A DNA stretch of 64,000 bases from Aeoliella mucimassa (GTDB lineage: Bacteria > Planctomycetota > Planctomycetia > Pirellulales > Lacipirellulaceae), in contig NZ_CP036278.1 in assembly GCF_007748035.1 (NCBI RefSeq), forward strand, positions 5,952,001-6,016,000, in the 5' to 3' direction. The notes beneath the pieces were generated by a model. The model ran no database searches and was not told the origin of the DNA. It was given only the letters and a program-made list of their open reading frames with translations. Shown piece after piece: positions 26,653 to 63,290 of the stretch. The translations under genes and the position numbers were made by a program. Position 1 is the stretch's first letter. Each line of letters opens with the position of its first letter.

Positions 26653-26706
26653 AGCCACTCGATTGATACCACCCGTTTCTTTAAGAGCATTCCACCGAGA
26701 TTGAAC

Positions 26707-28356
26707 ATGATGCGTCCTAGTATCCTGAATAGCTTCGTGGCAATGCTTGCCTTGTTGCTAGCAAACACACTTATCTACTCCACGCTGTATGCAGCGAACT
26801 CCATCGGCATCAACTTCGTCGGTGGACGTCATTCGCAAATCAACGTGGAAGGCAAGACACAAGCAGAGATCAACGCTCTGATTGCTGGATTGACCGAGGA
26901 TCAGAAGGTCTACAACCCTAACAACCCTACGGCCTACTTGAATGGCCATGAAGTCACAGGCATGGCCGGTGTTGGCGACTTCGCTCAGACCAATTGGAAC
27001 AATGTCGCTCGGTACACCGAGACGCTCAACGAAGGCACTTATGGGGCCGGAGACGATCCGAGCCTGCCTGACACCAATGGCTCGCAGACAGGGTTTATCA
27101 CCTCAACCGGTACCACGATTCCTGGCATGACCGTCACCTGGGAATCCGAGAACTCCTATCAAGCAGTCAACAACAGCATCGAGAATGAAGATGAACACTT
27201 GATGGAAGGCTATCTCGACATCTCAGGGCGAGATCGCGACATGACCGTCAAGATGACTGGCATTCCCTACAACAGCTTCGATCTGGTGGTCTACGTCGGA
27301 TCCGATGGTATCGACGGCCGCATGGCTTATATCGATGTCAATTATCCAACTGACTCCAACAGCGACGGCATCGACGACGGTATGGATGGCGTGGAAGGGC
27401 CCTACAACGACAGCGGGTTCTACTTTGTCCCCAACACTGGCAAAGGCATTTTCACTGGGCCTGATGATTACCTGCAGATCAATGCTAAGTCGATGAATCA
27501 AGCCGATGCACAGAACGGGGCCAATTATCTACTGCTTCAATCGGTGGCCGCGATGGGCGACGACAGTTCGCTTTCCATCCGCATCGAAGGCATTCGCGAC
27601 CGCAGCAATGCAGGCATCCATGGCATTCAGCTCATCGAAGCCAACGACTTGACGCTGCTCGTTGATACGGTGACTGGCGAAGTCGCCCTGCAGAACGCCA
27701 GCCCTGCTTCCTCGATTGACTTCGATTTCGATTTCTACCAAATCACAAGCGAGTCAGGCGCCCTCAGTCCTACAGGTTTCCGCGGCATGGCGGATCAAGA
27801 CTACGAAGGCAACGGCCCGACCGGCACCGGCAATGGTTGGGAAGAGATGGGGAGCCTCAGCGACACCTCGATTCAAGAAGGTTACCTGTTGGAGAGCACC
27901 ATGCTCACGCTGGGAGAAGAAATCCGTCTCGGAGCAGCGTTCACCCCAGGTGGTGCCGAAGACCTGGTATTCCGGTACAAGACGGCTTCGGGGGTGACTC
28001 GCACCGGCAAGATCATTTACGGCGAAAATGTTCTCTCCGCCGAACCCCTGTCCGGCGATTACAACGGCGACGGCATCGTCAATCTCGCCGACTACACGGT
28101 TTGGCGCGACTCTCTTGGCTCCACCACCGACCTGCGTGCAAACGGCAACGACACCGGCGCCAGCCAAGGCGTGGTCGACATGGCCGACTACCAGACTTGG
28201 AAGACCAACTTTGGCCAGACAGCTGCCGCCGGCTCGGTGCAAACAGCAAGTGTCCCCGAACCCTCGACCGCCTGCTTGCTAGTGCTGATGGGCATAGCCT
28301 GTGCGGTACGCAGCCGTCGGTCCTCAATGCAGGGCAACAACGACTCGCACGTTTAG
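26707..28356 (+). CDS. PEP-CTERM protein with dockerin-like block, GINFVGG family
   Basis: About 549 residues: a signal peptide ending near YAA, an N-terminal ectodomain of about 300 residues beginning SIGINFVGG and containing QTNWNNVA, LMEGYLDI and NAGIHGIQLIE, then the VDTVTGEVALQN module (about 310-440), a dockerin-like block SGDYNGDGIVNLADYTVW, and the anchor VPEPSTACLLVLMGIACAV with RSRR. The same N-terminal domain occurs at 32543 and twice in the protein at 34220. Dockerin-like calcium loops may bind partners or stabilise the stalk. ATG at 26707 or 26710; TTG at 26701 is also in frame. Confidence 0.82.
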   Translation: MMRPSILNSFVAMLALLLANTLIYSTLYAANSIGINFVGGRHSQINVEGKTQAEINALIAGLTEDQKVYNPNNPTAYLNGHEVTGMAGVGDFAQTNWNNVARYTETLNEGTYGAGDDPSLPDTNGSQTGFITSTGTTIPGMTVTWESENSYQAVNNSIENEDEHLMEGYLDISGRDRDMTVKMTGIPYNSFDLVVYVGSDGIDGRMAYIDVNYPTDSNSDGIDDGMDGVEGPYNDSGFYFVPNTGKGIFTGPDDYLQINAKSMNQADAQNGANYLLLQSVAAMGDDSSLSIRIEGIRDRSNAGIHGIQLIEANDLTLLVDTVTGEVALQNASPASSIDFDFDFYQITSESGALSPTGFRGMADQDYEGNGPTGTGNGWEEMGSLSDTSIQEGYLLESTMLTLGEEIRLGAAFTPGGAEDLVFRYKTASGVTRTGKIIYGENVLSAEPLSGDYNGDGIVNLADYTVWRDSLGSTTDLRANGNDTGASQGVVDMADYQTWKTNFGQTAAAGSVQTASVPEPSTACLLVLMGIACAVRSRRSSMQGNNDSHV

Positions 28357-28412
28357 CCTGCTTACCACAAACAATCATCCATTGACTACTCACTGAACCA
28401 ATCACTTACAGG

Positions 28413-29891
28413 ATGCCACCTTCAATGCGTACTCAGCAGCGACTCCATATCACATCCCTGGCGTTCATGATTCTCATGGCGGCGACCTCCGCCTTTTCGC
28501 AACAGCTGTTGTTCTCCGAAAACTTCGACTCCATCGCCCTCGGCCCTTCGGTGGACGAAAACATCGTGGTCTACGAGTTCTGGTCGAACTTCGATACCAA
28601 CCCAGGTTCGTTGCCTGGATGGGCGATCGACAACTCCGAAATGCCCACCGGCGGTGTTACCGAATGGCGTGGCTGGGCCTTCACCGATCCCGACTTGTGG
28701 GCCATCACCGACCTGCAAGCCCGCGGGCAATTCCAGAAGGGTGAAAACGTGGTCGCCGTGGCCGATCCGGACGAATGGCATGATAAGAGCCCAGGCGACG
28801 GTTACTACACCACTTTCATGAGCACCCCCGCGATTAGCGTCGGATCAGCCACCGAAGACACCCTGAGCCTGCAGTTCGATAGTAGCTGGCGACCAGAAGG
28901 TTTCGACGACACGATCGGTGGCAGTTTCCCATCCGGCACAAACAATCAGACCGCTGTGATTCGCGTTGCCTACAACGGCGGCGACTACGACACCGAGGTC
29001 ATGCGTTGGGACTCCAACGTCGGTGGTCAGTATTTCAAGCCCGATGCAACAAATGAAACCGTTACCGTAGATATACCGCTGCCTGCTGGCACCTCGAGCA
29101 TTTCTCTCGAGTTTGGCATGGAGCAGGCCCGCAACGACTGGTGGTGGGCAATCGACAACATTGGTCTCTACGACGGTGACCCAACACTGTCGCTCGTCGT
29201 CGATCGCGACACTGGGGCCATGACCATCGAGAATGGCACCAACGGTGCGGTTGATATCAAAGGCTACACAATTACTTCCGAAGCAGGGGCATTGGATCGC
29301 GCCGATCAGACCAGCCCTATGTCCAGCAGGTACTCTGGCTGGATTCCCTTCGGTGGCAACTCCCCCAAGAACGTTGTTGGCGAAGGTCACCTTTCGACCT
29401 ATTCAATCGCAAATAATGCAAGCGAAACCATTGGCAATGTCTGGCAGAAGTTCAGCATCGAAGAGGAAGACATCAACTTCACCTATCTCGATGGCAATGG
29501 AGAGGTAGTCGAAGGCATCGTTCGGTTCGAAGGAACTTCGCAAACCACTCCTTATTTACTAGGTGACTTTGACTTCAGCGGTGGCGCTCCAGATGAGCTC
29601 GACTGGCCTACGATTCGCGACAACTTCGCTGCCGATCTGTCGGGCATGTCGGAATACGACGCCTATGTTCATGGCGATATCACCGGCGACGGAGCCAACG
29701 ACCTGGCCGACTTCATTGAGTTCAAGCGCATCTTCGTTGCCGCCCACGGGTTGGAAGCCTTTCAAGCAATGGTCTCCGGTGCAGCTGTGCCCGAACCATC
29801 GACCTTCGTACTCGCTTCGCTCCTGACCATCGGCCTGGTGTTCAAAGGTCGTATCATCGGACGCAAACGCTCGCAACACGCTGCTGTGTAA
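28413..29891 (+). CDS. PEP-CTERM protein, NDWW family with dockerin-like block
   Basis: A 492-residue exported protein. After the signal peptide (cut near AFSQQ) the ectodomain carries EWRGWAFTDPDLWA, VAVADPDEWHD, SSWRPEGFDD and RNDWWWAIDNIGLYDG, homologous to the protein at 25673. A VDRDTGAMTIEN module follows at about residue 260, then a dockerin-like block (LLGDFDFSGGAPDELDWP) and the anchor VPEPSTFVLASLLTIGLVF with a basic tail. ATG at 28413 or at 28425 (Met5). It is 56 bases after the preceding PEP-CTERM gene with no terminator, so probably co-transcribed. Confidence 0.82.
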   Translation: MPPSMRTQQRLHITSLAFMILMAATSAFSQQLLFSENFDSIALGPSVDENIVVYEFWSNFDTNPGSLPGWAIDNSEMPTGGVTEWRGWAFTDPDLWAITDLQARGQFQKGENVVAVADPDEWHDKSPGDGYYTTFMSTPAISVGSATEDTLSLQFDSSWRPEGFDDTIGGSFPSGTNNQTAVIRVAYNGGDYDTEVMRWDSNVGGQYFKPDATNETVTVDIPLPAGTSSISLEFGMEQARNDWWWAIDNIGLYDGDPTLSLVVDRDTGAMTIENGTNGAVDIKGYTITSEAGALDRADQTSPMSSRYSGWIPFGGNSPKNVVGEGHLSTYSIANNASETIGNVWQKFSIEEEDINFTYLDGNGEVVEGIVRFEGTSQTTPYLLGDFDFSGGAPDELDWPTIRDNFAADLSGMSEYDAYVHGDITGDGANDLADFIEFKRIFVAAHGLEAFQAMVSGAAVPEPSTFVLASLLTIGLVFKGRIIGRKRSQHAAV

Positions 29892-29985
29892 GTGATGCAG
29901 CTCACGAGCAATCCACTCCATAATTCCTACAAAGCCACCCCTGAGTTCGGCACAACACGAACCGCCACTGAGGAGCTAACCTTCG

Positions 29986-31332
29986 ATGCGATATTCACAC
30001 GCCCTGCTATTTAGTATGGTCTGTTTCTTGACGTCGGCCATGGCCGATGCTTCGACCGTTGACCGCTGGTATCGCTTCGGCGACGAGGGTACCACAGGTA
30101 CCTTGGACAGCGCCGGCGAGTTTGATGGTTCTGGCAATCCCATTTTCGATCAGCCTGAAGTCCTATCGTTCGCCAACCTTGGCTCGGTGCTCGGCACCTC
30201 GCAACCAACGTACGCCGCTGCAGACGATCGCCCCGACCTACCTGCCGGATCCACCGGCAACATGGCCGCCAGCTTCGATGGCGATCGCGACATGTTCGGC
30301 ACGGTCAACCTGAACTTCCCGCAATCGTCGTTTTCGTCGGTGCTGAGCATCAGCGACGCCGGTGCCGGCCCCTACGACTACTCCGGCGTTAGCGACCGAT
30401 ACCTGCAGTTCTGGGTCAAACCTGCCAACGCTACCTCGACTCAGGTATTGGTGAACGACACTCAGCAACATGGTGTCCGCATACACGATGGCAAGTTCTC
30501 GATGCGATATGCCGAGACCGATTTCGACTCCGACGTGGAAGTCGAAGTTGGACGTGGAAACTTCCCTGGTACGAATGTCGACAGCAACGGTTGGTACCAC
30601 ATCATGCTGCTGACCCAAGACAACCTCTACGAGCGTGGCAGCGCTACCCTCTACGTCGATGGTGTAGCCGTTGCCGCAATCGCTGGCGACTACCAGATTC
30701 AAGGCGAAGTAGTCGACACCGGAACCACGCTAGGTGAACCAGTGGTGATCGACGACTACCCCCTCTCCATCGGCGGCGGTGCCCGCGCCCGTAACGTTAG
30801 CGGCACCATCCGCTACCTGGTTCGCGAAGCCGATTATTTCGAAGGCCTGATCGACGAACTCGAAATGGGCGTGATCGGCTTCAATCGTAACGACGAATGG
30901 GGCGAGTTTGATTTCGCCACCGAGAACCAATTCGCCCGTGAGATTGCCTTCAATGGTGTCGATCCTGCCGACGTAAACCTCGATGGCATCGTGGCCGGCG
31001 ATGGCACCGGCCCTGCTTCTTCGGACGACGTGACCGCGTTTGTCGAAAACTTCTTCTACGAAAAAACCATCGATAGCATCCTGGCCGGTGGCGACGCCGA
31101 CGAACGAGTACCCGTGCGGGTTGGCGACGTCACGACTCGTGCCCTCGGCGACTTGAACGTCGATGGCATCATCGACCTAGCCGACTGGTCGATCCTCAAC
31201 GCGGCCGATCCCTCGATGGGATCGCTCGTGCTCAACAAGCTTGGGGTCTCAACAGTGCCTGAACCAGCAAGCTGCGTTTCGCTTGCCTGCATGTTGACCA
31301 TGCTTGGTTTCGCTGCTCGGCGTTTCCGTTAA
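29986..31332 (+). CDS. PEP-CTERM protein with LamG-like domain
   Basis: A 448-residue exported protein: signal peptide cut near MADA, then STVDRWYRFGDEG, a LamG/concanavalin-like domain (about residues 70-290, with NGWYHIMLLTQDN and YFEGLIDELEMGVIG), a dockerin-like segment (ADVNLDGIVAGDG and LGDLNVDGIIDLADW) and the anchor VPEPASCVSLACMLTMLG ending AARRFR. The third unit of the 1275-residue protein at 49860 is its homologue over the whole length. A good ribosome binding site (GAGGAG) precedes the ATG. Confidence 0.82.
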   Translation: MRYSHALLFSMVCFLTSAMADASTVDRWYRFGDEGTTGTLDSAGEFDGSGNPIFDQPEVLSFANLGSVLGTSQPTYAAADDRPDLPAGSTGNMAASFDGDRDMFGTVNLNFPQSSFSSVLSISDAGAGPYDYSGVSDRYLQFWVKPANATSTQVLVNDTQQHGVRIHDGKFSMRYAETDFDSDVEVEVGRGNFPGTNVDSNGWYHIMLLTQDNLYERGSATLYVDGVAVAAIAGDYQIQGEVVDTGTTLGEPVVIDDYPLSIGGGARARNVSGTIRYLVREADYFEGLIDELEMGVIGFNRNDEWGEFDFATENQFAREIAFNGVDPADVNLDGIVAGDGTGPASSDDVTAFVENFFYEKTIDSILAGGDADERVPVRVGDVTTRALGDLNVDGIIDLADWSILNAADPSMGSLVLNKLGVSTVPEPASCVSLACMLTMLGFAARRFR

Positions 31333-31347
31333 TCGCATTTTAGGTAC

Positions 31348-31380
31348 GCGTATCAACGTGGGCGGGCCATGTTGATATGC
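31348..31380 (+). other. Strong intercistronic hairpin
   Basis: A 14-pair stem with two G-U pairs (31348-31361 with 31367-31380) and a five-base loop, 15 bases after the PEP-CTERM stop and before the DUF1559 gene. No T-run follows. It may limit read-through or be an RNA processing site; it also overlaps an upstream candidate start at 31377, which favours the start at 31413. Confidence 0.45.
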
Positions 31381-31412
31381 CTTCATGGATAGTGAAAGGG
31401 TTTGGTGGGTTT

Positions 31413-34183: not shown

Positions 34184-34219
34184 AACATCACCTTGCGGAC
34201 TACATCAGGGAGTAATCCA

Positions 34220-37063
34220 TTGAAAACGAAAGCACTGCTGACAACGGTCGCAGTATTCTTAGTCTTCAGCGTCCATCAGGCCAGCGGACAAAGCCAGATC
34301 GGTATCAACTTCATCGGTGGCATCACCGGCGGCGGCCCCGGCGGTACGGTCACTGGTAGTGCGGGCTGGCAAGGCACCTCCGACGGCGGCGACTACGATT
34401 ACCCACGCGACATTTCTCAAATCAACTGGAACAACGTCGCCCCTCCAGTGGATGGTGAAATCGAAGACCTGCAAGACTTCAAGGGGAGCGCGTCGGACCT
34501 AATCAACTCCGCAGGCGAGACCACTTCGCTCAGCGTATCGTGGTTGGCCGAAGAACCCTACCGTGCGTTTGGCGGCCCCTACAGCAATCAAGATCAGGAA
34601 CTGATGTCGGGATACATCGATGTCGACGACACCTGGCCTACGTCTTACGTCAACCTGACCGACATTCCCTATAACGGGTACGACCTAGTAGTCTACGTTG
34701 GAACCGATGGAAACAACCGCACCGCTAGCGTACAACTCGGCAACGACGACAACTCGCGGACCTGGTTCGTCACCAACACTGGTGGTGGAGCTTTCTCTGG
34801 CCCCGAAGACTACATTCGTGCAACCGCTATCAGTGAGTTCGATGCCGAGCCTGGTAATTTCATCGTCTACGAAGGGTTAATTTCCAGCGATCTTGAAGTA
34901 CGAATCACCCGCGGCACGAACAACGCCGGCATCAATGGCATTCAACTGATTGAGCGGAGCGACGTTCCTTTCTTAACACTGATGGTCGATACCGTAACCG
35001 GTGTCATGGCGATTCAAAACAACTCCGGCGAGGCGGTGGATTTCGATGCCTACCAGATCGAAAGCGCCGATGGCAGCCTGAATCCCACTGGCTTTCGATC
35101 GCTCGAAGACCAAGATTACGAAGGCAACGGGGCTTCTGGTTCTGGTCACGGTTGGGAGGAACTCGGAGTTCCCTCGGCCAACCTGATGGGCGAAGCATTC
35201 CTCGCCGATAGCAGCGTGCTAGATGTCGGCAGCAGCGTTTTGCTTGGGTCTTCCTTTACCGCTGAGTCGGTCGAAGACCTGGTGTTCCGGTACCACCAGA
35301 CCGGCAGCTTCACACAAAAGGGACGCGTCGAGTACTGCGAGAACTGCTTGTTCATTGATCTTCAAGGCGACTACAACAGCGATGGCGTCGTAAACCTGGC
35401 CGACTACACGGTGTGGCGCGACTCTCTAGGGTCAACCAGCGATCTGCGAGCCAACGGCGACGACACCGGCGCCAGCCAAGGCGTTGTCGACGCGACCGAC
35501 TACCAAGTTTGGAAAGCTAACTTCGGAGCCAGCACTGGTGCCAGTCAGGCCGTCGCCAACACGCAAGTCCCTGAGCCAAGCAGCGTGACGCTGTGTTGCT
35601 TGCTCGCAATTGGTTTCGTGCCTTTCGGTTTACGACGTACTCGTTGCCTTTCAGCGAATCGAGTACGTACATTTCTTTTAGCTGCTACGGTACTGGTCGC
35701 TACGGGCTTCTGCCAACCGACTTATGCGGTCTCAGTCGGCATGAACATGGTCGGTGGCATTGGATCTTCGGCCTCGGAGGTTAATGGGGTTGCCGGGTTT
35801 CGCGGCGACACGGAGAAAGGCCTCGCCGACGTTTCGCAAGCCAACTGGAACAACGTGGCCTATTTCACCGTGGGTGGGGTCGACGGGGTATACGACATTC
35901 TCGGTACTGCGGAAAACCTGAAGACCAGCGAGAATGTAGTGACCGACATGTCGGTCTCGTGGCTGGCCGATAACACCTGGGCGGCTGGAAACCCCACGAA
36001 GGACAACGACGACGAACGGTTGATGGACGGGTATGTCGACAACTCCACCGATCTAACCACATCCTATTTCACTCTGAATAACATCCCGTTTACGGGATAC
36101 GATCTATACATCTATGTCGGCTCCGATGGCAACGGTCGTGTTTCTTACACTCGACTTGGAGAAGACTCCTCGAGCGACACCTACTTCGAAACCAACACGG
36201 GACAGGGAGCCTTCACCGGCCCGGACGATTACGTTCGCGCGGAAGCAAAGAGCATCGGCGAGACCGCCCCTTCCAACTTCATCTTGTACGAAGGTCTGTT
36301 GTCGCCGAATATCGAGTTCACCGTGAACCGCGCTACCGGCAACGCAGGCGTACATGGTATTCAAGTGGTCGAACGAACAGATATTCCCTTTCTGAGTTTG
36401 GTGGTCGATCGGGTCACCGGTTACGCCGAACTGCGAAACGAATCGGGCGGCGATGTTGACCTCGACCTCTACCAAATAGGTTCACCCGACGAAGCATTAA
36501 CTCCCAGTAGCTTTTACTCGCTTGAGCAGCAGGACTACGAACAAAATGGAACTGCTGGTTCCGGCAACGGTTGGGAAGTCATGGGTACCCCTTCCACGAA
36601 ACTCATTGCGGAGTCGTTTCTGCAAGGAAGCTCACTACTAAGCATTGGTGCGAGCATCAACTTGGGACAGATCTTTGCTCCCGGCGGAGCCGAAACTCTC
36701 GAGATTCTATTCCACGAAGTCGATGGCGTTCTAAATCCAGGCCGAGTGGATTACTGCGACAATTGCGTTGCGGCCTCAGACCTTAAGGGAGACTACAACG
36801 GCGACAATCAGGTAAATCTGGCCGACTACACGATTTGGCGAGACAGCCTTGGGTCCACTGGCGATGGACTTGCCGCGGATGGCAACAACGATCAGGTGGT
36901 CGACTCTCTCGACTATCAGCTTTGGAAAAGTCACTTCGGCCAATCCATGGCAGCGCCGCTCAACGCATCGGCATCCACCACTCAAGTGCCTGAACCTGCC
37001 AGCTACACCGCCCTGCTTCTGACCGCAAGCGTTCTGGCTTGCAGACGGGTCACCTGCGTTTAG
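34220..37063 (+). CDS. Tandem double PEP-CTERM protein (putative polyprotein)
   Basis: A single 947-residue frame with two complete PEP-CTERM proteins in series. Unit 1: signal peptide, GINFIGGITGGG domain, VDTVTGVMAIQN module, dockerin-like block, then VPEPSS at residue 450, a hydrophobic helix and LRRTR. Unit 2 begins at once: RTFLLAATVLVATGFC (from residue 483) is a second signal peptide with a cut site at PTYA/VSVG (residue 503), followed by a paralogous ectodomain, VDRVTGYAELRN, a dockerin block and the final VPEPASYTALLLTASVLA. The start is TTG at 34220 with AGGGAG eight bases upstream; TTG 34193 has none. No internal stop exists. See findings. Confidence 0.82.
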   Translation: MKTKALLTTVAVFLVFSVHQASGQSQIGINFIGGITGGGPGGTVTGSAGWQGTSDGGDYDYPRDISQINWNNVAPPVDGEIEDLQDFKGSASDLINSAGETTSLSVSWLAEEPYRAFGGPYSNQDQELMSGYIDVDDTWPTSYVNLTDIPYNGYDLVVYVGTDGNNRTASVQLGNDDNSRTWFVTNTGGGAFSGPEDYIRATAISEFDAEPGNFIVYEGLISSDLEVRITRGTNNAGINGIQLIERSDVPFLTLMVDTVTGVMAIQNNSGEAVDFDAYQIESADGSLNPTGFRSLEDQDYEGNGASGSGHGWEELGVPSANLMGEAFLADSSVLDVGSSVLLGSSFTAESVEDLVFRYHQTGSFTQKGRVEYCENCLFIDLQGDYNSDGVVNLADYTVWRDSLGSTSDLRANGDDTGASQGVVDATDYQVWKANFGASTGASQAVANTQVPEPSSVTLCCLLAIGFVPFGLRRTRCLSANRVRTFLLAATVLVATGFCQPTYAVSVGMNMVGGIGSSASEVNGVAGFRGDTEKGLADVSQANWNNVAYFTVGGVDGVYDILGTAENLKTSENVVTDMSVSWLADNTWAAGNPTKDNDDERLMDGYVDNSTDLTTSYFTLNNIPFTGYDLYIYVGSDGNGRVSYTRLGEDSSSDTYFETNTGQGAFTGPDDYVRAEAKSIGETAPSNFILYEGLLSPNIEFTVNRATGNAGVHGIQVVERTDIPFLSLVVDRVTGYAELRNESGGDVDLDLYQIGSPDEALTPSSFYSLEQQDYEQNGTAGSGNGWEVMGTPSTKLIAESFLQGSSLLSIGASINLGQIFAPGGAETLEILFHEVDGVLNPGRVDYCDNCVAASDLKGDYNGDNQVNLADYTIWRDSLGSTGDGLAADGNNDQVVDSLDYQLWKSHFGQSMAAPLNASASTTQVPEPASYTALLLTASVLACRRVTCV

Positions 37064-47775: not shown

Positions 47776-48518
47776 ATGAAACACACACCTTTGCCCATAC
47801 TCCTCATTCTACCCATTCTGCTTTTAACCAGTCCAATTCAGGCTGCTCTTGTTACTCACTACCCATTCGATGCTGATGGCTCCGCGACCGTAGGAGCCGA
47901 CGCAACGCTCGGCGGATCTGCCAGCATCGATAATTCCGACTACGCTGTGGGCTCAGGCTCACTCGCCTTGTCTGCTGCAACGGACGATGCCCTCGGCGAA
48001 GATGGCGCTGTTTCCGGCGACAGCTTCACCTGGACAAGCGACATCCGCACGGTTGCCTTTTGGATGAAGGGTACCGCTGGGGACCATGGCGACTCGTTTA
48101 GTACCCTCATATCGTTGGGCGCTGGCACCGGAGCCGGCGAGCGTTTCGATGTCCGCCTGGATGGCGATGCGTTGCGACTCGAGGTGCAAAGCGGTGGCTT
48201 CACCACTTCGTCGATCGTCGCCGACGACCAGTGGCATCACATCGCGGTGGTTGTTCCCATCGACGAAGCAACCGTATCCGACGTGCAGTACTACATCGAT
48301 GGCTTGTATGTCGATAATTTCAACCACACCCGTGCCATCGCCACTGCCGAAGGGCCACTTCGTATCGGTGACAGCTACCAAGACAACGGTCGCGATTTTA
48401 AAGGCAATATTGACGACGTCCGACTGTACGACTCTGCCCTGTCGGCCCAAGAAATCGCGGACTTGGCGGCCGTGCCCGAACCGAGCACCATTTGCCTGCT
48501 AGTACGTCGTCCCGGAAG

Positions 48519-49618: not shown

Positions 49619-49859
49619 TCCGCAGCATATAGCAGCGGAATGGATTTCAGGAAAGACGTACTAGTCCTGGCGATCGGTGCGATGGCTTCCGTCAGACGCT
49701 TTCGATAGTTCACACAACGCTTCACTAGCCTGGCTACCGAGCCGGCAGCTGTTGCCTTCGGTAGCTTGGCTTGTCTTATCCAACGCTTCTCACTCATTTT
49801 TAATACCTTGGCTTGAACCAGGCCGGCTTTCGAGTTTTCCATCGATATAGGGAGTTCCC

Positions 49860-52800
49860 GTGGTTGCTCTACAGAGGTTTTATGCTTGGAAATGGATAGC
49901 ACTGTTCGCACTGCTTACCTGCGGCTCGGCAAACCATACGCTGGCCGTGATTGTTTGGACCGGTGCTGGCGCTGACTCCACCGCATTGTTTGCCGTGGAC
50001 AATTACAACTTGACGGGTTCGTCGGTCACCACGATCGAAGCAGGTGTTCCGATCGAAGACGACGTGACGATCTCGGGCACAACGATAGTCGCTAGCGACT
50101 ATCCTGCTGGCTTTACGACCTTCGCCATGGCCGACGGCTACACCGCGACCCTCAACGGGGCGACCTTGGTCTCCAACGACTCGGGCGGCATTGCCGGCGA
50201 GGTCGGCTATCTGCAGAGCTATTTTCATCTGACGAATGGCAGCAGCATGGACATGCAATTCGCCACGCTGGGGGCCGACATCCTGCTCGACTCCACTAGC
50301 TCGCTCACCTTCCGCGGAGGGGGCGATCCGATCAACTCGCAAGGGGATACGACCCGAGTTCTTATGCAACCGGGTGCGACACTCACCTTGGCCTCGGAAG
50401 CCGAGTTCAGCGAACATTTGGGCGAGATCTTTGTCGATGGTGTATCCGCACTCGAAGAACCTGGCATCCTTAACATCTCTGGCAACACCGCCACGGCGGT
50501 CGCTCCGACTCCGCGTTTCTTTGTGGAAGTCGATCGACAGTCGGGCAATGTGACGCTGAGCAACCCTTTCTCTTCGTCGCTTACTCTCGTCGGCTACTCG
50601 CTCCGCTCTGACAGCGGTGCTCTCAACTCTGACAATGGGGTTTGGAACTCGATTACCGATCAAGGTCTTCAAAGCGATTGGTTCGAGTTCACCGCAACTG
50701 GCGATCGCCAGAACGTCGGCGAAGCCGAGCTTCCTGGAGGTGCCGGCCTGACCCTTGCTGCCGGCCAAAGCATCGACCTGGGCAACATCTGGATCCAAAA
50801 CCCAGCCGAAGACCTCGAACTGCAACTTCTCACCCAAGCGGGACCGACCGACGCTTCGCTTCGCTACGTCGGGGCCCCGATCATCAACGGCGACTTCAAC
50901 TCCGATGGTCTGTTTACCGAAGTGGACTGGCCTGCTTTTCGCAACAACATATTCAGGGATCTTTCTACCATGTCGGCGGCCGAGCAATTCAAAATGGGTG
51001 ACATGAATGGCGATGGTTTGAACAACGAGGAAGACTTCCTGCTGTTCAAAACCATGTACGACACCACGTTCGGCACCGGGGCGTTCGAGTCGATGGTCGC
51101 GGCAACTTCGGTCCCCGAACCATCTACCGCCTGGCTGCTGGCAGCAGTCGCTCCGCTGCTCTTTTTCTGCCGCACAGGCAATCGTCCCCGTCGGGCGCTT
51201 GTTCGAGTAGTCGCCATGTTGGTGCTTGGCGTCAGCATCCTGGCTGGCCAACCGGCTCAGGCTCTCGAAGTGCTCTCCTCGAATTTTGACGCCCACGGAT
51301 CGACCGACGGGGCAAGTGCGTTTACTGGCATCAACTGGACGACCAACGGAGTGAGCAGCCCTGGCTCCACGATTCCGCTCTCGGTCGGGGCCGTGCAAAC
51401 CGATGGGGCCGCGGAAAACGTCGATCGCCTGGCGGTTGCCTACAACATCGATACGCAAGGTCCTTGGTACATCGACTTGTCTTTCCAAGCAACGACCCCT
51501 GGTGTGATACTCGACTACCTGAAGTTCGACTATCAGTTCATCTCTGGCGGTGGTGGTAATCAAGGTGGTGCTCATAACAATAGCGGTATCGTGGATGTCA
51601 CCATCTTCGACGGTAGCATGAACTCATTATCAACCGCCCAAATTGGACCTCTCGGTACTACCGATGCTGCGAGCAACATCGGCTCGAATGTGATTGTGGA
51701 CTTCGACAATGTCTCGCTCACGAATGGTTCTACCTATACCGCACGGTTCGAGGTGAGTAGCAACGCGACCGCAGGCAACAACTTTGCCTTGGACAACCTG
51801 TCGCTGAACGCACCCGATCCTCTGCTTGCACTGCAAGTGAATACCGATACGGGAATGGTGAGTCTCAAGAACGACACTGGCTCTCCTATCGATTTAAACC
51901 TCTATAAGTTGACCAGCGAGTCGGGATCGCTGGATGTTGTAAGTTGGAATAGCCTGCAGGATCAGAATCTGGCGAGCTTCCCTGCTGGCGACGGCTCCGG
52001 CAATGGCTGGGAGGAAGCCGGCGGTAGCAATAATTCGGAACTCGGCGAGTTCTTCCTAACCGGCGACTCAACCCTGGCCGGCGGCGAACAGGTCTCGTTG
52101 GGCAGTGTGTTCAATCAAAGCTCTGGACTCGAGGACATCATGCTTCGCTACCGCGATACTTCCTCCGGTCTGTTTGTGGATGTGCCTGCCACCTATGTAA
52201 CCGGCGGGGGTACGCCCGGCGATTACAACAGCGATGGCCTGGTAAACCTCGCCGACTACACCGTGTGGCGAGACAATCTCGGTGCGAACATCACGCTCGC
52301 AAACGAAAATCCCGCGGCCAGCACTCCTGGGGTGGTCGACAGCGAGGACTATGATTTCTGGAAGAGTCAATTCGGTTCGGGTGCTCTATCTGGTTCGTTG
52401 AACGCCGGCTCAGCAGTACCAGAGCCCGCGACTTGGGCCTTGCTGCTCGTCGGTAGTCTGCTGCTGGTGGGCCGCCGGCGGGGGATGTCTGCTCTGCTGT
52501 TGGCCATCGTGTTGCTGCCGAGCATCACGTTGGCTTCGACACTCGACCGGCAGTATTTGTTTGGCGACGACCCATTGGAAGATGCCGGCAACGCAGTGAA
52601 CAACGTGGTTGGCACCGGCTCTGGCAACGTGGTAACCGATGGCACGCTCGACTCCATTGGTCCAGATACCGACTTCGAAAACTACGCCGACCTGCTTCGC
52701 TCGGGGGGTGATCCCAAGTACGTTCGCGTCGACCAGATGGGCCGCCCGGGGGCTAGCTCCGGCGATCTTGGAGTCGAGTTCCTCGGCACCGGCGATTACC

Positions 52801-53687
52801 TTGACGGTCCGAATCTGAATGGACCGGTCAACTCGTACAGTGCCGACACGCAGAATGGCGACCTCAACTACGTCGGCATTTTTGATCGTGGGATGCAGTT
52901 CTGGGCTTATCCTTACTCCTCGGGGTTAGGCACCGACCAGTCGTTGGTGGCCGACAGCCCGCAGCACTCGGTGCGTATTAGCGCCGCGGGTGAGTGGGTC
53001 ATGCAGTACTCCAATGTCGAGTACAGCTCGGGAGTCGATGTCGACTTCGACGAGTGGGCGCATGTCATGTTGGTTCGTCCTTATGGTGCGGCGAATGGCT
53101 CGCGACTATACATCAATGGCATCGCGGTAGTCGCGGGTGGTGCAGGCTATGGCAATGCGGATACTTCTCCTTTGGTAGTCGGCTCGAATAGCGGCGACAC
53201 GCCGGGCACGACCGACTACTACCAAGGCGTGCTCGACGATCTCGAATTGTTCGTCATCGGCACCTCGACGGCCGCGCCGTTCGACGACTACGGCGACTTC
53301 GACCTGGCGACCGATAACTCGTTTGTCGCCGACGCGATCGCAGGCCTCACGCCTGGCGACCTCACCGGCGACGGTGTCGTGATGGGCGATGGCACCGGCG
53401 GGGCGAATGACGACATTGCGGCGTTCATTGCCAACTGGCAAACCGAGCAGGTGATTGGCGACCTGCGTGTGGGAGACCTGAATAGCTATGGTCTCGGCGA
53501 TTTCAATATGGATGGCATCGTCGACCTGTTCGACTGGGACATCATCCGTACCAACCATGTAAACGCGGCCTCGTTGAACCTCGGCGAGTTGCTCTCTGGT
53601 CAGTCGGTTCCCGAGCCCTCCAGCATCTTGCTACTGGTTGGTGGTGGACTGCTTGCGTTGCGTTGCGTGCGCCGCAAGACAGCCTAG
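49860..53687 (+). CDS. Tandem triple PEP-CTERM protein (putative polyprotein)
   Basis: One 1275-residue frame with three PEP-CTERM units. Unit 1 is a homologue of the 37060 protein and ends at VPEPST (residue 418) with RPRRALVR. A new signal peptide VVAMLVLGVSILAG follows, cut site at PAQA/LEVL (468). Unit 2 is a jelly-roll-like domain with an LNTDTG-type module and dockerin block, ending at VPEPAT (853) with GRRRG, directly joined to MSALLLAIVLLPSITLA (cut about 892). Unit 3 is a homologue of the 29986 LamG protein and ends VPEPSSILLLVGGGLLAL (1250) with RCVRRK. GTG start at 49860 with GGGAG eight bases upstream. A strong terminator follows. Confidence 0.85.
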   Translation: MVALQRFYAWKWIALFALLTCGSANHTLAVIVWTGAGADSTALFAVDNYNLTGSSVTTIEAGVPIEDDVTISGTTIVASDYPAGFTTFAMADGYTATLNGATLVSNDSGGIAGEVGYLQSYFHLTNGSSMDMQFATLGADILLDSTSSLTFRGGGDPINSQGDTTRVLMQPGATLTLASEAEFSEHLGEIFVDGVSALEEPGILNISGNTATAVAPTPRFFVEVDRQSGNVTLSNPFSSSLTLVGYSLRSDSGALNSDNGVWNSITDQGLQSDWFEFTATGDRQNVGEAELPGGAGLTLAAGQSIDLGNIWIQNPAEDLELQLLTQAGPTDASLRYVGAPIINGDFNSDGLFTEVDWPAFRNNIFRDLSTMSAAEQFKMGDMNGDGLNNEEDFLLFKTMYDTTFGTGAFESMVAATSVPEPSTAWLLAAVAPLLFFCRTGNRPRRALVRVVAMLVLGVSILAGQPAQALEVLSSNFDAHGSTDGASAFTGINWTTNGVSSPGSTIPLSVGAVQTDGAAENVDRLAVAYNIDTQGPWYIDLSFQATTPGVILDYLKFDYQFISGGGGNQGGAHNNSGIVDVTIFDGSMNSLSTAQIGPLGTTDAASNIGSNVIVDFDNVSLTNGSTYTARFEVSSNATAGNNFALDNLSLNAPDPLLALQVNTDTGMVSLKNDTGSPIDLNLYKLTSESGSLDVVSWNSLQDQNLASFPAGDGSGNGWEEAGGSNNSELGEFFLTGDSTLAGGEQVSLGSVFNQSSGLEDIMLRYRDTSSGLFVDVPATYVTGGGTPGDYNSDGLVNLADYTVWRDNLGANITLANENPAASTPGVVDSEDYDFWKSQFGSGALSGSLNAGSAVPEPATWALLLVGSLLLVGRRRGMSALLLAIVLLPSITLASTLDRQYLFGDDPLEDAGNAVNNVVGTGSGNVVTDGTLDSIGPDTDFENYADLLRSGGDPKYVRVDQMGRPGASSGDLGVEFLGTGDYLDGPNLNGPVNSYSADTQNGDLNYVGIFDRGMQFWAYPYSSGLGTDQSLVADSPQHSVRISAAGEWVMQYSNVEYSSGVDVDFDEWAHVMLVRPYGAANGSRLYINGIAVVAGGAGYGNADTSPLVVGSNSGDTPGTTDYYQGVLDDLELFVIGTSTAAPFDDYGDFDLATDNSFVADAIAGLTPGDLTGDGVVMGDGTGGANDDIAAFIANWQTEQVIGDLRVGDLNSYGLGDFNMDGIVDLFDWDIIRTNHVNAASLNLGELLSGQSVPEPSSILLLVGGGLLALRCVRRKTA

Positions 53688-53710: not shown

Positions 53711-53748
53711 AGCTCCCCACTCGCCGAGAGCGAGTGGGGAGCTTTTTT
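53711..53748 (+). terminator. Rho-independent terminator after the triple PEP-CTERM gene
   Basis: AGCTCCCCACTCG (53711-53723) pairs perfectly with CGAGTGGGGAGCT (53731-53743), loop of seven bases, followed by a T-run to 53748. It separates the gene from the convergent DUF4914 gene. Confidence 0.88.
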
Positions 53749-53783: not shown

Positions 53784-55721
53784 CTACAAAAGCGACTCGT
53801 AATCTTCGATCGTCGCACCATCCAGGCAGGCCTCGATCGCTTTGCGACCGATCGGTTGCAGATCGTCGACCAGGAACTGCTTGAGCTGCTGGTGGAAGAA
53901 GTCGGTAAGGATCTTGGCACCTTTGTCGTAGGCCTCGGGGCCAACCTCTGGTTGCTGCGAGACATCCAGGAACCAGGTACCGATCGTCTGGCCTTCGACC
54001 ATCAGCGTGTGCTTGTTGTAACCCAACAGCGGGCAACGCGAAGGGCTTAGGTCGCCGGGGCGGAACGGGGCCGCGCCGCGGCGGGCCAGGTACTCGCGGG
54101 CGATCCACTGCGGAGCAAAGCCAACCTTCCAAGCACCGATGTGCTGATTGGGAATCAACACAAACAGCGTCTCTTCGGTCTTGCGAATCTGATCGAGTAG
54201 GATGTTCGCCTGATCCACTTTGCGACCTGTCGCGAACGGCCAGAACGAACCGACCCCTTCGCTCTGCATGCCGCCTTGATCAACGATCGAGGGATTGCCA
54301 TGGCCGCGGGGGGCAACCAATCGCCAGAGCCAAGCCAGCGTGGGGGGCAACACATGGAAGATGCCCATGATGCCGTACGTGGGATTCTCGGCCGTACAAG
54401 GGGGACAACGCACGCCGAAGCTACGGATGTCGACCGTCACGGGATGACTAATCACGCCCGGCACGTAGGTCCGTGGCAACACCACCCGCGGATTCGGGCA
54501 GGGCTTGCCAGGCGCGTCCATCGTGTGTTCCCAGATCAGAGCGGTCGAATCGGGCTTGGCCTGGATGTTCAGGAACAACAGTGGTCCTGGAGGATGCACC
54601 GTGATGTTTTCGAGATGCGGATCGACACCGTAGTGTTCGATGTGATTCACGCGAATAAACCAGGCAGCTTCCGCGTCGGTAAGCGAGAGCTTGCCTTCCT
54701 GCTTGTACTCGGTTTCCAGATCGGAATGGCACAGGGCCATGTCGTCGGTCACTGGCAACAGATCGCAGCCGCGGGCGAGGGCCAGCTTCCGCTGGTCGCC
54801 ATTCACCAGGTTTTCGCCGAGCAACAACGTACCATCGGCTTCACGATGCATCCGCTCGAGCATTTCGCTCTTACCACCGCCCGAAGCACCTTCGTGCATG
54901 ATGGTGGTGGTGTTCTCGTAGGGAGTCACCACTTCCACGGTCGAACAGTGGGCGGTGGTCCAAGGCTCCGCGTCGCGCTCGCCCATGGTGAGCAGCATGC
55001 CGTATACACCCTTCTTGGCCGAAGGACCGGGGTACAGGTTGTACGAGAACAGCTCGTGCAGATTCACTTCGTCTTCGAAGCGACGATTGTGCACGACGAC
55101 CTGCTTGCCCTCGAAATGCGTATGGCGGAACGGCGGGGCCACGTACAGCACGGCCCCGTGATGGTACTTAGTGCCAGCCGCGCGGATTTCGTCGAGCGGA
55201 ATGATTCCCTGGAGCATCGCCAGACCAAGGGCGAAGAAGCCCGCGTTCGCGGGAGCGATGGCCACCGCGTTTAGCGGACGATTTGGCAGACCCGTGCGAA
55301 AGAAGAACGCAGCAATCGGCTGGGTCTTCAGCCATTCGAGCGTTTCGCCGCGGAGGTCGTTAAAGGGTTTGCCAAACCGCTGCTGGTAGGTTGGCTTGTC
55401 GGTGCTGGCAATGTCGCCGACGAGCATGCAGTCGGGGTCGCGGCGACGCATATAGGGATCGATGTAGTTGGCAGCGACGCCGTTCTTTACTTTGCAGACC
55501 TTCGCTTCGGGCACGTACTCCCCGCCCGGCACGTCGTACCCCACGGTGTAGTATCCATCGGCGTCGATATCGCCAAGACCGAGCGAAGCGTCGGGTAGCG
55601 ACAGTGCGACTAGCTCCTCCACGCTGCCCGCCATGTGCAGGCGGCCAGCCTTTTCGGCGGCTTCGAGTACGGACATCGCACTGTGCGAGAGAGTCAGGTC
55701 GGGAAAATCAGCGAGGGGCAT
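53784..55721 (-). CDS. DUF4914 protein with PEPCK-like P-loop
   Basis: A 645-residue soluble protein of the DUF4914 type. A phosphate-binding loop EGASGGGKSEMLERM near residue 278 resembles the kinase-1a motif of phosphoenolpyruvate carboxykinases and HPr kinases. Other conserved-looking blocks are TKYHHGAVLYVAPPFRHTHFEG, HPPGPLLFLNIQAKPDS and PNQHIGAWKVGFAPQW. No signal peptide or membrane helix is present. The family's reaction is not established as far as I know; the P-loop suggests nucleotide-dependent phosphotransfer or carboxykinase-like chemistry. It stands alone. Confidence 0.78.
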   Translation of the reverse strand: MPLADFPDLTLSHSAMSVLEAAEKAGRLHMAGSVEELVALSLPDASLGLGDIDADGYYTVGYDVPGGEYVPEAKVCKVKNGVAANYIDPYMRRRDPDCMLVGDIASTDKPTYQQRFGKPFNDLRGETLEWLKTQPIAAFFFRTGLPNRPLNAVAIAPANAGFFALGLAMLQGIIPLDEIRAAGTKYHHGAVLYVAPPFRHTHFEGKQVVVHNRRFEDEVNLHELFSYNLYPGPSAKKGVYGMLLTMGERDAEPWTTAHCSTVEVVTPYENTTTIMHEGASGGGKSEMLERMHREADGTLLLGENLVNGDQRKLALARGCDLLPVTDDMALCHSDLETEYKQEGKLSLTDAEAAWFIRVNHIEHYGVDPHLENITVHPPGPLLFLNIQAKPDSTALIWEHTMDAPGKPCPNPRVVLPRTYVPGVISHPVTVDIRSFGVRCPPCTAENPTYGIMGIFHVLPPTLAWLWRLVAPRGHGNPSIVDQGGMQSEGVGSFWPFATGRKVDQANILLDQIRKTEETLFVLIPNQHIGAWKVGFAPQWIAREYLARRGAAPFRPGDLSPSRCPLLGYNKHTLMVEGQTIGTWFLDVSQQPEVGPEAYDKGAKILTDFFHQQLKQFLVDDLQPIGRKAIEACLDGATIEDYESLL

Positions 55722-60115: not shown

Positions 60116-60248
60116 TCCCTATCTTCTTATCTTCGTGTACCACAACTTTTGAGAACTTGTTGAAGCAAGCGTTCCATTGACGCAGGCCCTGCGAGGCGGC
60201 CTGCGAGGGCAGCAATGGACAAGCCTTTTTCTCTGGGAGAGTAGATTC

Positions 60249-63200
60249 ATGAAACGATGCATGCTGTGCCTGATGGCGCTAGTTCTAGCCGCTCAGGCAG
60301 ACTTATCTTACGCGTTCAATATTTTCACCCCTGACGATTTCATTATCGCGATCGATACCGACTTTCTTGCGCCTGTAAGCAGTACACCTGCAAGTGGGAA
60401 CGAAGATGCCCCCATGGCGATTGATGGCGACATCAACACCAAGTACCTGAACTTTGGGAAGTTCAACACTGGTATTCTGGTAACCCCCGGCGACCTGTCC
60501 ACCGTACAGAGCATGGTGCTTTCCACGGCCAACGACGCTGTCGGCCGTACTCCTGCTTCCTACATCCTGCAGGGTACCAACGTTAGTCCGACCGCTACTC
60601 CCAACAACGGCACCGGTGAAGAAATCGATTACATGTGGGAAACTATTTCGGAAGGCACCTTGGCGCTTCCCGACACGTTCCTCACGGTTGCCGACCCGGT
60701 GAACTTCACGAACTCGAGTTCCTACTCGTCGTATCGCTTGTACTTCCCCACGATTAAGGATTCCAACCAAAACAGCATGCAAATTGCTGAAATCCAGTTC
60801 TACAGTGGACTGGATGGAACTGGTAACGCCATTCTTTCGCCCACCGACCCAATCGTTGCCATTGCTGACGACGAACTGCTGCCACAAAGCGCGTCACCAG
60901 CTGCTGAACTCCCCGAAAAGGCGATCGACCGCATTCTCACGACCAAATACCTGAACTTTGCTGAAGAAAACTCGGGCTTCATTCTCACCCCTTCGGTCGG
61001 TGCAACCATCGTCAACAGCTTTAATATCACCACGGCCAACGACTGGCCTGAACGTGATCCCACCAGCTACGAGATCTGGGGCACTAACGAAGAGATTACC
61101 ACTCCTAACAATGGTATCGGCAACGAACAAAACTACACGTTGATCACCTCGGGTACTCTCGAACCTCCTATCGATCGCTTCACCCAAAGCCCCACCATCG
61201 AGTTCAGCAACAATACGGCCTACACCTCGTACAAAGTGGTGTTCCCAACCGTACGCGACGCAGCTACTGCCAACTCGATGCAGATTGCTGAGTTCTCGCT
61301 GAACGCTGCCGATGTTTCGGCGTTGGTGATTAACATTAGTGGTCCCAACGCAGGTACCGGCTTCATTCGTGCAGACGAATCTTTCTCGATCGGCAGCTAC
61401 GAAATCCGTTCGGCCTCTGGCTTGCTCGCGTCCGAAGAGTGGACCTCCATCACTTCGACCGGTGCTGATGCCAGCGACAATTGGAGCGAGTCGAGCCGCA
61501 CCGACTTCCTGATCGCCGAAGCCGATGGCGAAGGTGGTGCCGACAACGGCCTGGCCCTCTCGGCCGGTGGCCAGTTCAACCTTGGCGAAGCTTTCCGCGT
61601 GGTTCCTTCGTTCTACGCCGATGGAACGACTCCTACCAACTGGAACGATGCGATCTTCATCCTCTACGATGAGAATGGAACCGTGATCGGCGGTAACGTC
61701 GAATTCGTTGGCGACCCCGTACCTTGGGGTGATTTCAATGGTGACTTGTCGATTGATGCTGCCGACTGGCCTGCGTTCCGCGCCGGCATGGGTGGCGACT
61801 TCACCGGCATGAGCGAACTAGAAGCCTACCTGCTGGGCGACCTCGACGGTGACCTCGACAACGACATCGACGACTTCAACCTGTTCGTGAGCCTGGTTCC
61901 AGGTGGTATGGATGCGTTGATCGCTGCTGGTGTTCAAGTACCTGAGCCTTCGTCGATCGCTCTGTTCGCGATCGCTGGTGCAGTGGCCTTCGGCGTTCGC
62001 CGCCGTCGGCACATCGCTGCCATGGTCGCGATGCTTGGGTTTCTAGCGGTACCCGCTCTGTCGCAAGCCCAGTCGATGCAGAACTTCTCCGTGGTTGGCT
62101 CGACGCCTACCACTTCGATTCCTGCAGATCAAGCGAACGAGAACGAGACCTCGGGTCCCGACAATTTTTTCGACGACACGATTCTCGACGACCCTGGTCA
62201 GGTGGTCTTCGACCTATTCTCAACCGACTACAACGATCCTGAACTGTTCCCAACCGGACCTCCAGCCCAGTACGCTGGTCTGGGCGTGGAACCCAAGGTG
62301 GTTTTTTTGGACTACGGTAGCTCGGTAACTGCGAACTGGTTCATGTACGCCCAACGCTCCGGCGCCATCACCACGGCCGACCGCGTGGGCATGTTCGAGT
62401 TTTGGTTCAGCAACACCGACTTCGGCGGTGTGCTCCCCAGTTCCGATCCTGATTCGGTGGTTGAATTGCTTCCGGACGATTCCCGCATTGTCGACAGCAC
62501 CTTGCGTCCCTACACGCTCGGCGGTGATCAATCGGGACGCTACGTTGCCATGCGTTTGACCGTCTCGGAAATCTCCGGCGGCGTCGGCAACATCGGTGGT
62601 CACGAGTTTCGTCTGCTCGACGGTCCCAGCGACGTGGTACTCGACGTCAATCGCACGACTGGCGAGATGACCATTCGCAACAACCTTGCTGGCTCAGAGA
62701 ACATCTTCATGAAGGCTTACTCCATCGACAGCCCTGGCGGTGGTCTGGATGCCGATGAGTTCAACGGGCTGGCTGGCATCGGTGCCTTTACCGCGGGTAA
62801 TGGTTCGGGCAACGGCTGGGAATCGGGCGACATGAGCAACGACAGTCGCCTGATGGAAGCCTATTACCTTGGCGAAACCACCCTTTCGGCTGGTACCGCT
62901 GCCATGAGCATTGGTGCTGCCTACAACGAAGTGCTGGCCACCGAAGACCTGATCTTCAAGTGGACCAACTCTCAAGGCGAAGTCTACAACGGTCGCGTGG
63001 TATATAGCGGTGCGATTGCTCCGCTGGCTGGCGACTACAACGGCGACGACATCGTCGACCTGGCTGACTACACCGTGTGGCGCGATAACCTCGGCTCCAC
63101 CACGGCCAACCTGCCGAACGACAACACTCCGTCGATCGTCGACATGAGCGACTACGATACCTGGAAGGAAAACTTCGGAATCAGTCGCGTTGTCCCTGCT

Positions 63201-63290
63201 GGTTTGTCGACCGCTGCAGTGCCCGAGCCCGCTACTTTGGGTCTCTGCCTGTTGGCCGCCGCTGGCTTGGCTGTTTATCGCCGTCGCTAA
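60249..63290 (+). CDS. Tandem double PEP-CTERM protein with discoidin-like domains (putative polyprotein)
   Basis: One 1013-residue frame with two PEP-CTERM units. Unit 1: signal peptide (cut near LSYA), two repeated discoidin-like domains (AIDGDINTKYLNFGKFNTG and AIDRILTTKYLNF), a dockerin-like block (WGDFNGDLSIDAADWP), then VPEPSS at residue 564, a helix and VRRRRH. The next residues IAAMVAMLGFLAVPA are a new signal peptide, cut at LSQA/QSMQ (607). Unit 2: ectodomain, VNRTTGEMTIRN module, dockerin block (AGDYNGDDIVDLADYTVW) and the final VPEPATLGLCLLAAAGLAV with YRRR. ATG 60249 has GGGAGAG upstream. Confidence 0.84.
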   Translation: MKRCMLCLMALVLAAQADLSYAFNIFTPDDFIIAIDTDFLAPVSSTPASGNEDAPMAIDGDINTKYLNFGKFNTGILVTPGDLSTVQSMVLSTANDAVGRTPASYILQGTNVSPTATPNNGTGEEIDYMWETISEGTLALPDTFLTVADPVNFTNSSSYSSYRLYFPTIKDSNQNSMQIAEIQFYSGLDGTGNAILSPTDPIVAIADDELLPQSASPAAELPEKAIDRILTTKYLNFAEENSGFILTPSVGATIVNSFNITTANDWPERDPTSYEIWGTNEEITTPNNGIGNEQNYTLITSGTLEPPIDRFTQSPTIEFSNNTAYTSYKVVFPTVRDAATANSMQIAEFSLNAADVSALVINISGPNAGTGFIRADESFSIGSYEIRSASGLLASEEWTSITSTGADASDNWSESSRTDFLIAEADGEGGADNGLALSAGGQFNLGEAFRVVPSFYADGTTPTNWNDAIFILYDENGTVIGGNVEFVGDPVPWGDFNGDLSIDAADWPAFRAGMGGDFTGMSELEAYLLGDLDGDLDNDIDDFNLFVSLVPGGMDALIAAGVQVPEPSSIALFAIAGAVAFGVRRRRHIAAMVAMLGFLAVPALSQAQSMQNFSVVGSTPTTSIPADQANENETSGPDNFFDDTILDDPGQVVFDLFSTDYNDPELFPTGPPAQYAGLGVEPKVVFLDYGSSVTANWFMYAQRSGAITTADRVGMFEFWFSNTDFGGVLPSSDPDSVVELLPDDSRIVDSTLRPYTLGGDQSGRYVAMRLTVSEISGGVGNIGGHEFRLLDGPSDVVLDVNRTTGEMTIRNNLAGSENIFMKAYSIDSPGGGLDADEFNGLAGIGAFTAGNGSGNGWESGDMSNDSRLMEAYYLGETTLSAGTAAMSIGAAYNEVLATEDLIFKWTNSQGEVYNGRVVYSGAIAPLAGDYNGDDIVDLADYTVWRDNLGSTTANLPNDNTPSIVDMSDYDTWKENFGISRVVPAGLSTAAVPEPATLGLCLLAAAGLAVYRRR

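Follow-up and report, generated by a model that had tools for sequence, protein, structure and literature searches.

How can one bacterial reading frame carry three C-terminal sorting signals, two of which are internal? The question is raised by an open reading frame (ORF) of 1275 codons at positions 49860-53687 of a 64,000-nucleotide stretch of the Aeoliella mucimassa genome (hereafter the window; NCBI RefSeq assembly GCF_007748035.1, contig NZ_CP036278.1, positions 5,952,001 to 6,016,000 of the forward strand), which encodes three PEP-CTERM units in series. Our answer, to which we assign a probability of roughly three in four, is that the product of this gene is a secreted polyprotein, made up of three exosortase substrates, which signal peptidase and exosortase would cut. 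Several unit types are encoded in one reading frame, the frame is conserved, and we infer that the mature proteins are separate.

The sequence-only reading from which this work started had described the frame, VPEP motifs at residues 418, 853 and 1250, and two internal signal-like segments ending PAQA↓LEVL and SITLA↓STLD. All of these are present: the frame runs on the plus strand from GTG to TAG, the PEP itself lies at residues 419, 854 and 1251, and both segments are correct in coordinates and cut sites, with small residues at -3 and -1 as claimed (A and A at the first site, T and A at the second). The NCBIfam model PEP_CTERM TIGR02595 scores 43.2 bits on the ORF against a cut-off of 16, in three stretches, and PF07589 scores 47.9 against 20.7 bits, with two stretches passing individually. 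A position at the extreme C-terminus, as expected of PEP-CTERM, holds for the anchor at 1250 and not for those at 418 and 853. In a 17-residue hydrophobicity scan the ORF peaks at residues 421-437, 444-466, 874-896 and 1254-1271, the second anchor helix falling below threshold. The N-terminus has R6 and K11, a hydrophobic run and, by eye, a TLA↓V site, and the 17-residue windows there do not exceed 1.6; our own signal score accepts the N-terminus in 37 of 59 junction-bearing ORFs, some of which are truncated at locus edges.

One part of the earlier description was wrong. The three ectodomains had been called unrelated, whereas units 1 and 2 align with 31% identity over 221 columns (E = 3e-18), a homology that covers their C-terminal halves (an LTD-like segment plus dockerin). 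Unit 3 has just a short dockerin-like piece in common with the other two (E = 0.003). Folds were identified from sequence profiles alone. Dockerin type I (PF00404) passes on unit 1 (26.3 vs 22.9 bits) and was not listed for units 2 and 3 in the Pfam scan of the ORF, and the family profile A4 matches dockerin chains with a best E of 2.3e-6. Because the Lamin tail domain PF00932 does not reach its gathering score (17.3 vs 34.3 bits), we use the label LTD-like only. PF13385 (Laminin_G_3) passes when unit 3 is scanned alone (34.4 vs 27.6 bits) and was not listed at E ≤ 0.1 when the whole ORF was scanned; over five unit-3-type proteins, three pass, one lies just below the cut-off and one is without a match.

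Table 1. Coordinates of the three-unit ORF, its parts and the other fused and split PEP-CTERM genes of the window.
Feature	Position	Strand	Remarks
Three-unit PEP-CTERM ORF, predicted polyprotein	49860..53687	+	1275 aa, GTG start, TAG stop
Putative N-terminal signal peptide	49860..49946	+	residues 1-29 (..NHTLA↓VIVW), by eye
Unit 1 ectodomain	49947..51110	+	variable N-terminal domain, LTD-like segment, type I dockerin (Pfam, residues 344-397)
Internal PEP-CTERM anchor 1	51111..51194	+	VPEP at 418, hydrophobic stretch, basic residues
Predicted internal signal peptide 1	51195..51263	+	ends AQA↓LEVL, residue 468; ASA↓LEVL in L029
Unit 2 ectodomain, unit 1 homologue	51264..52415	+	LTD-like segment, dockerin-like end (profile A4, not Pfam); E = 3e-18
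Internal PEP-CTERM anchor 2	52416..52481	+	VPEP at 853
Predicted internal signal peptide 2	52482..52535	+	ends TLA↓STLD, residue 892; VLA↓STAD in L029
Unit 3 ectodomain	52536..53606	+	LamG (Laminin_G_3), dockerin-like end
C-terminal PEP-CTERM anchor 3	53607..53684	+	VPEP at 1250
Terminator-like hairpin 3' of the ORF	53711..53743	+	14 pairs, T run
Separate genes, L/L/C	26701..31332	+	26701-28356, 28413-29891, 29986-31332; window unit types split
Fused ORF, two units (L=L)	34193..37063	+	second in window
Fused ORF, two units (L=L)	60177..63290	+	third in window

Of 87 internal PEP matches identified by motif and hydrophobicity, in loci retrieved without our junction model, 84 are followed by another hydrophobic segment that carries a small-x-small site. 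Topology was examined in a set likewise retrieved without the model, comprising 83 junctions once L075, L082 and L109 (which have no second segment) and L076 (a chance match) had been removed by hand, as they were from the start, anchor and Shine-Dalgarno (SD) counts; 82 were long enough to score, here and in the SD counts. The second segment has a mean hydropathy of at least 1.6 in 82 of 82 junctions, compared with 9.6% of 551 ectodomain control pieces. The loops hold 338 K/R residues vs 16 D/E and are net positive in 82 of 82. An A-x-A motif follows the second segment in 60 of the 82 (38% in shuffles). Junctions have a mean signal-like score of 8.6, ectodomain pieces average 5.2 and shuffled tails 5.9, and 3% of ectodomain pieces reach the 5th percentile of the real junctions. 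Internal anchors, moreover, match terminal ones: VPEP occurs in 88% of 86 internal and 86% of 197 terminal anchors, and the first basic pair lies at a median of 20 in both (this comparison also omits L114@40 as a chance match, L164 as a duplicate of L011, and L069 and, like the start-codon counts below, includes a few loci retrieved with the junction model). The enzymes are encoded as well: PF09721 scores above its cut-off in three ORFs of the same genome, all three also exceed 105.55, the cut-off of TIGR02602, and the genome has signal peptidase S26 frames too. On these patterns the junctions look functional. One of the exosortases (L058, G000:C1:1484638-1485399) is part of a frame of 1742 codons in which TPR-like matches follow, and may be a fused exosortase-TPR protein.

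The units also exist apart. We typed units as L (LTD-like/dockerin) or C (unit-3 type), writing = for a fused and / for a separated boundary. The typed set, which may hold near-duplicate genomes, contains 58 ORFs with at least two units: 22 L=L=C, 22 L=L, 6 L=C, 2 C=L=L, 1 C=L, 1 L=x=x=L=C, 2 x=L and 2 x=x, the last four of which (x=L, x=x) include chance motifs (L076, L082 and L109, for example). Split counterparts stand in the window itself, where the first, second and third of three adjacent genes match unit 2 (E = 9e-32), unit 1 (E = 2e-21) and unit 3 (E = 5.5e-44), respectively, and at another locus of the same genome (L026), which is split L/L/C in subtype order 1-2-C. Mixed sets occur too, as L/L=C (L031, L035) and L=L/C (L049). 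Each split protein has its own N-terminal hydrophobic segment and its own PEP anchor, and it is therefore simplest to suppose that the fused chain would finally yield separate proteins of these same kinds. These counterparts also bear on the idea of an uncut, multi-anchored scaffold, in which hairpins that remain in the membrane would keep the three domains tethered to one another. Hairpins of two helices and a basic loop would indeed be stable, but the PEP motifs are kept equally well inside chains and at their ends, A-x-A is in excess, and the unit types also occur as separate proteins with PEP anchors and N-terminal hydrophobic segments; we regard a scaffold as highly unlikely.

The fused architecture recurs throughout the genome. 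In the searches described here up to 150 candidates per genome were scored in the own-genome and family searches, 17 in a 39-genome search and 16 in the order- and phylum-wide searches, so that the counts are lower bounds and a missing match says little. The A. mucimassa genome is a single contig of 6.6 Mb with at least 150 PEP-CTERM matches (150 of 314 candidates scored), and a search of it with the window protein returned at least a dozen stop-free frames of about 1280-1540 aa. In 20 retrieved stretches plus the window, picked for having matches and hence giving a minimum rather than a proportion, we count 22 multi-unit ORFs (11 of two units, 10 of three and one of five) with 35 fused junctions; same-strand split neighbours within 150 nt number 17 in those loci. 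The five-unit ORF (L017:4255-8790) has a four-unit counterpart (L215:2366-7339) in genome G001, of the same genus, and their unit-3 domains are sisters; two closely similar junctions 262 aa apart in this pair suggest that a unit was duplicated in tandem.

Related frames are found well beyond this genome. At 1e-40 the window protein matched 18 genomes, all within its own family, among the own genome and 38 relatives; none of the 15 genomes of the same order outside the family matched at that threshold with 17 candidates scored per genome. Reading the loci places a fused ORF in at least 21 of 43 family genomes, the own genome included, and the relatives include Aeoliella straminimaris and Botrimarina, both placed in Lacipirellulaceae by tree; G001 has an ORF start and a junction identical to those of A. 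straminimaris (L144, L065). Junctions selected for A-x-A were the input of the junction model A2, whose conserved A-x-A is therefore circular and is excluded as evidence. With this model, 10 of 43 family genomes yielded 43 matches at E ≤ 1e-10; all are close to full length, and none has a stop. In 396 genomes of the order 56 matched at 1e-9, many in the PEP part only or with stops, and 20 of 20 regions retrieved from other Pirellulales families (10 genomes, 8 families) hold a fused frame. These reach larger sizes: a closed seven-unit ORF of 2427 aa (L187:3094-10374) with an FGE-sulfatase-like domain in six stretches, a closed eight-unit ORF, and a ten-unit frame that is open at a contig edge in a fragmented draft genome (81% complete). 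Of ten further regions read, three (L209, L210, L214) were without a good fused junction. Across 392 genomes of the phylum, with 16 candidates scored per genome, the only full-length stop-free match besides the own genome was in G109, outside the class, where a sulfatase unit is fused to a second unit in a 1241-aa ORF.

The frame has been kept over considerable divergence. The closest match outside the own genome, locus L029 of G001, which we take as the orthologue, is 59% identical, and its frame is intact through both junctions, with near-saturated synonymous divergence (dS) and both cut sites kept. Nonsynonymous divergence (dN) is 0.20-0.31 in the ectodomains, 0.92 in an N-terminal domain that differs, 0.77 at junction 1 and 0.46 at junction 2, while dS is at least 1.29 up to saturation throughout, except for 0.8 in the short third anchor; junction 1 contains one whole-codon gap. 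The differing domain is that of unit 1 (49947-50501), in place of which L029 has a LamG domain 62% identical to the window gene at 47776, apparently the result of a domain swap. Subtype order, typed against window units 1 and 2, is 1-2-C in 22 of 22 L=L=C ORFs, and among the L=L ORFs it is 1-2 in 17 of 22, 2-2 in two and unclear-2 in three. The three-unit genes thus look like descendants of one old fused gene, as judged from this order. Better evidence for repeated origin is provided by the FGE-type, G455 and G109 polyproteins, which carry other ectodomains. A quick-method tree built from 45 unit-3 domains, 35 of them fused and 10 single, has a starred branch with 14 sequences from five genera on one side, every one of them fused.

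An assembly or sequencing artefact, or a recent accidental fusion without significance, might be suspected given the insertion element just upstream of the ORF and given the same unit-3 tree, which needs seven changes between fused and single, at least four of them forced by starred branches. A single-contig genome with 35 junctions spread over 22 ORFs, and the presence of fused ORFs in 20 or more further genomes of the family and in 10 genomes of eight other families, make it exceedingly improbable, and we rejected an artefact or lone fusion as the architecture recurs and the frame is conserved. Because of those 35 junctions, and because the frame is kept in the closest relative despite near-saturated synonymous sites, the fused architecture is, on the sequence evidence, beyond chance and neither a sequencing slip nor a freak.

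A number of observations nevertheless weigh against the polyprotein reading. Three of the 87 internal PEP matches are without a second segment and another (L076) lies in a frame that by eye is PgpA-like; we take these four as chance motifs. A-x-A is absent from the tested stretch in 22 of 82 junctions, and of the composition-shuffled tails 14% have a signal score at or above the 5th percentile of the real ones. Stops occur within five near-full-length matches from the search across the order. Junction 1 is fast-evolving (17 of 50 residues identical to L029, dN 0.77), so that conservation there, by this comparison, extends to the pattern and not to the individual residues. The 22 L=L=C ORFs do not look like 22 independent fusions, since all have the subtype order 1-2-C. 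The split set of the window has the subtype order 2-1-C, the reverse L order of the fused gene, and on this typing we rejected the view that its genes stand in fused-unit order.

The remaining points on that side concern start codons and lead to a different account, in which the units are translated one by one from start codons of their own and the frame is open only by accident, as in an operon that has lost its stops. It would agree with the existence of split versions of the unit types. Start zones were examined at 89 junctions, two of them dubious (L114@40, chance; L164, duplicate of L011); cut sites in this set were picked by an A-favouring score, and A at -1 in all is by construction. 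ATG is present in the zone of 28 of the 89, but 20 have none of ATG, GTG or TTG, and ATG is not enriched, making up 36 of 1591 zone codons (2.3%) vs 153 of 4004 in anchor helices (3.8%). An SD-like motif with an in-frame start occurs in 10 of 23 long-loop junctions where 3.7 are expected, and in one of 59 short loops (2.6 expected). We read the long loops as probably younger fusions that still carry an old ribosome site, perhaps active, and some downstream units there may also be translated on their own. The window gene has short loops at both of its junctions, with no SD-like motif at either candidate ATG. ATG453 is CTG in L029; residue 876 at junction 2 is ATG in the window ORF and TTG in L029, and an internal start may exist there. 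Stops are, as noted, missing from all 43 family junction matches. From the start-codon and SD counts, internal starts are not favoured as the general explanation and we consider them unlikely. The polyprotein reading is well supported: recurrence, a frame kept across genera and present in other families, matching anchors, basic loops, signal-like segments, the usual lack of usable starts and the split counterparts speak for it. The claim of unrelated ectodomains has fallen.

For the polyprotein we propose the following path, of which we infer single-start translation, both cleavages, the final location and the stoichiometry, which the sequence-only reading had put at a fixed 1:1:1. From a single start the N-terminal signal peptide would begin translocation and unit 1 would be exported. 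Each PEP-CTERM helix would act as a stop-transfer segment, leaving the basic loop in the cytoplasm, and the next hydrophobic segment, serving as an internal signal peptide, would restart transfer. Signal peptidase I would cut this internal signal after A-x-A or T-x-A, so that the upstream unit is left with its PEP anchor and a spare signal helix as a two-helix hairpin. Exosortase would then cut at each PEP motif and pass the mature protein on. One coding sequence is thereby predicted to yield L1, L2 and C, in this order, as separate surface proteins.

Whether the window gene exemplifies something wider is less certain, and we lean slightly towards the view that Pirellulales use polyproteins as a general strategy for the surface proteome, with two to about ten diverse exosortase substrates joined by a standard connector (PEP-CTERM anchor, basic loop, internal signal peptide) and processed serially. 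The units would include LTD-like/dockerin, LamG and FGE-sulfatase-like types, with a sulfatase in one planctomycete outside the class. If so, the arrangement would provide ordered co-translational delivery in matched amounts, and units could be gained, lost or split while the mature proteins stay unchanged. Counting genes would give too low a figure for the PEP-CTERM proteins of these genomes. A mechanistic question also arises, namely how exosortase handles a substrate whose anchor precedes another helix, and the natural fused and split counterparts offer a test of fusion selected for order and ratio vs neutral loss of stop codons.

The surroundings of the ORF contain several features of their own. 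An IS630-like element (48499-49665, DDE_3) is 100% identical to own-genome copies in L016, L019 and L025 and lies at the end of a LamG PEP-CTERM gene (47776-48531), whose anchor it apparently cuts short; the counterpart of this gene in G001 (L029:5502-6188) is 65.8% identical and has a full anchor. Two terminator-like sites were found in the region vs 4.2 expected from shuffles, the hairpin behind the ORF being the longer one. The minus-strand neighbour (53784-55721) encodes a near full-length DUF4914 protein (990 bits). Three DUF1559 prepilin-like genes lie near PEP-CTERM genes (31377-32489, 43984-45012, 58985-60115), 18 of 30 examined loci contain prepilin-like ORFs, and the window neighbours also include ECF sigma and FecR proteins and sulfatases. 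Such neighbours would fit regulated surface systems for polysaccharide use.

How does this arrangement compare with known systems? The paper that defined PEP-CTERM places the domain close to the very C-terminal end of proteins and describes the rare copies found elsewhere as more variable and possibly non-functional (Haft et al. 2006, PMC1569441). The window ORF is like the PEP-CTERM/exosortase system in its VPEP, hydrophobic helix and basic cluster and in the exosortase of the genome, with a putative signal peptide in front, and it departs from the system as defined in that internal copies are here numerous, terminal-like and followed by a new signal-like segment. The suggestion that internal copies may be non-functional does not hold in this group, and our results suggest that PEP-CTERM is not only a C-terminal signal, contrary to what the definition assumed. 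The split PEP-CTERM clusters of the same genome (window 26701-31332 and L026) resemble the ORF in having adjacent unit types, each PEP-anchored, and differ from it in the stop and start codons that separate the units.

An anchor followed by a signal, with a cut by signal peptidase, is also the layout of the bunyavirus Gn/Gc precursor. There, two membrane proteins are made from one chain with an internal Gc signal peptide (PMC5113920). Unlike the window ORF, this precursor is eukaryotic endoplasmic reticulum/viral, yields two proteins and is not known to carry an exosortase signal, and the likeness is drawn without a claim of kinship. In bacteria, the cytochrome b/c1 precursor FbcH of Bradyrhizobium is a single chain with an internal signal-like segment that is cut after a membrane domain; unlike the window ORF, it yields two respiratory subunits and is not known to have repeated sorting tails. 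No report of PEP-CTERM polyproteins was found in the literature searched, which left most subscription journals and all bioRxiv preprints outside its scope. Bacteria are expected to co-produce secreted proteins from operons, not polyproteins, and here one bacterial group seems to use polyproteins with a standard connector for its surface proteins. Thus, the parts are known from other systems, and it is their arrangement that appears to be new.

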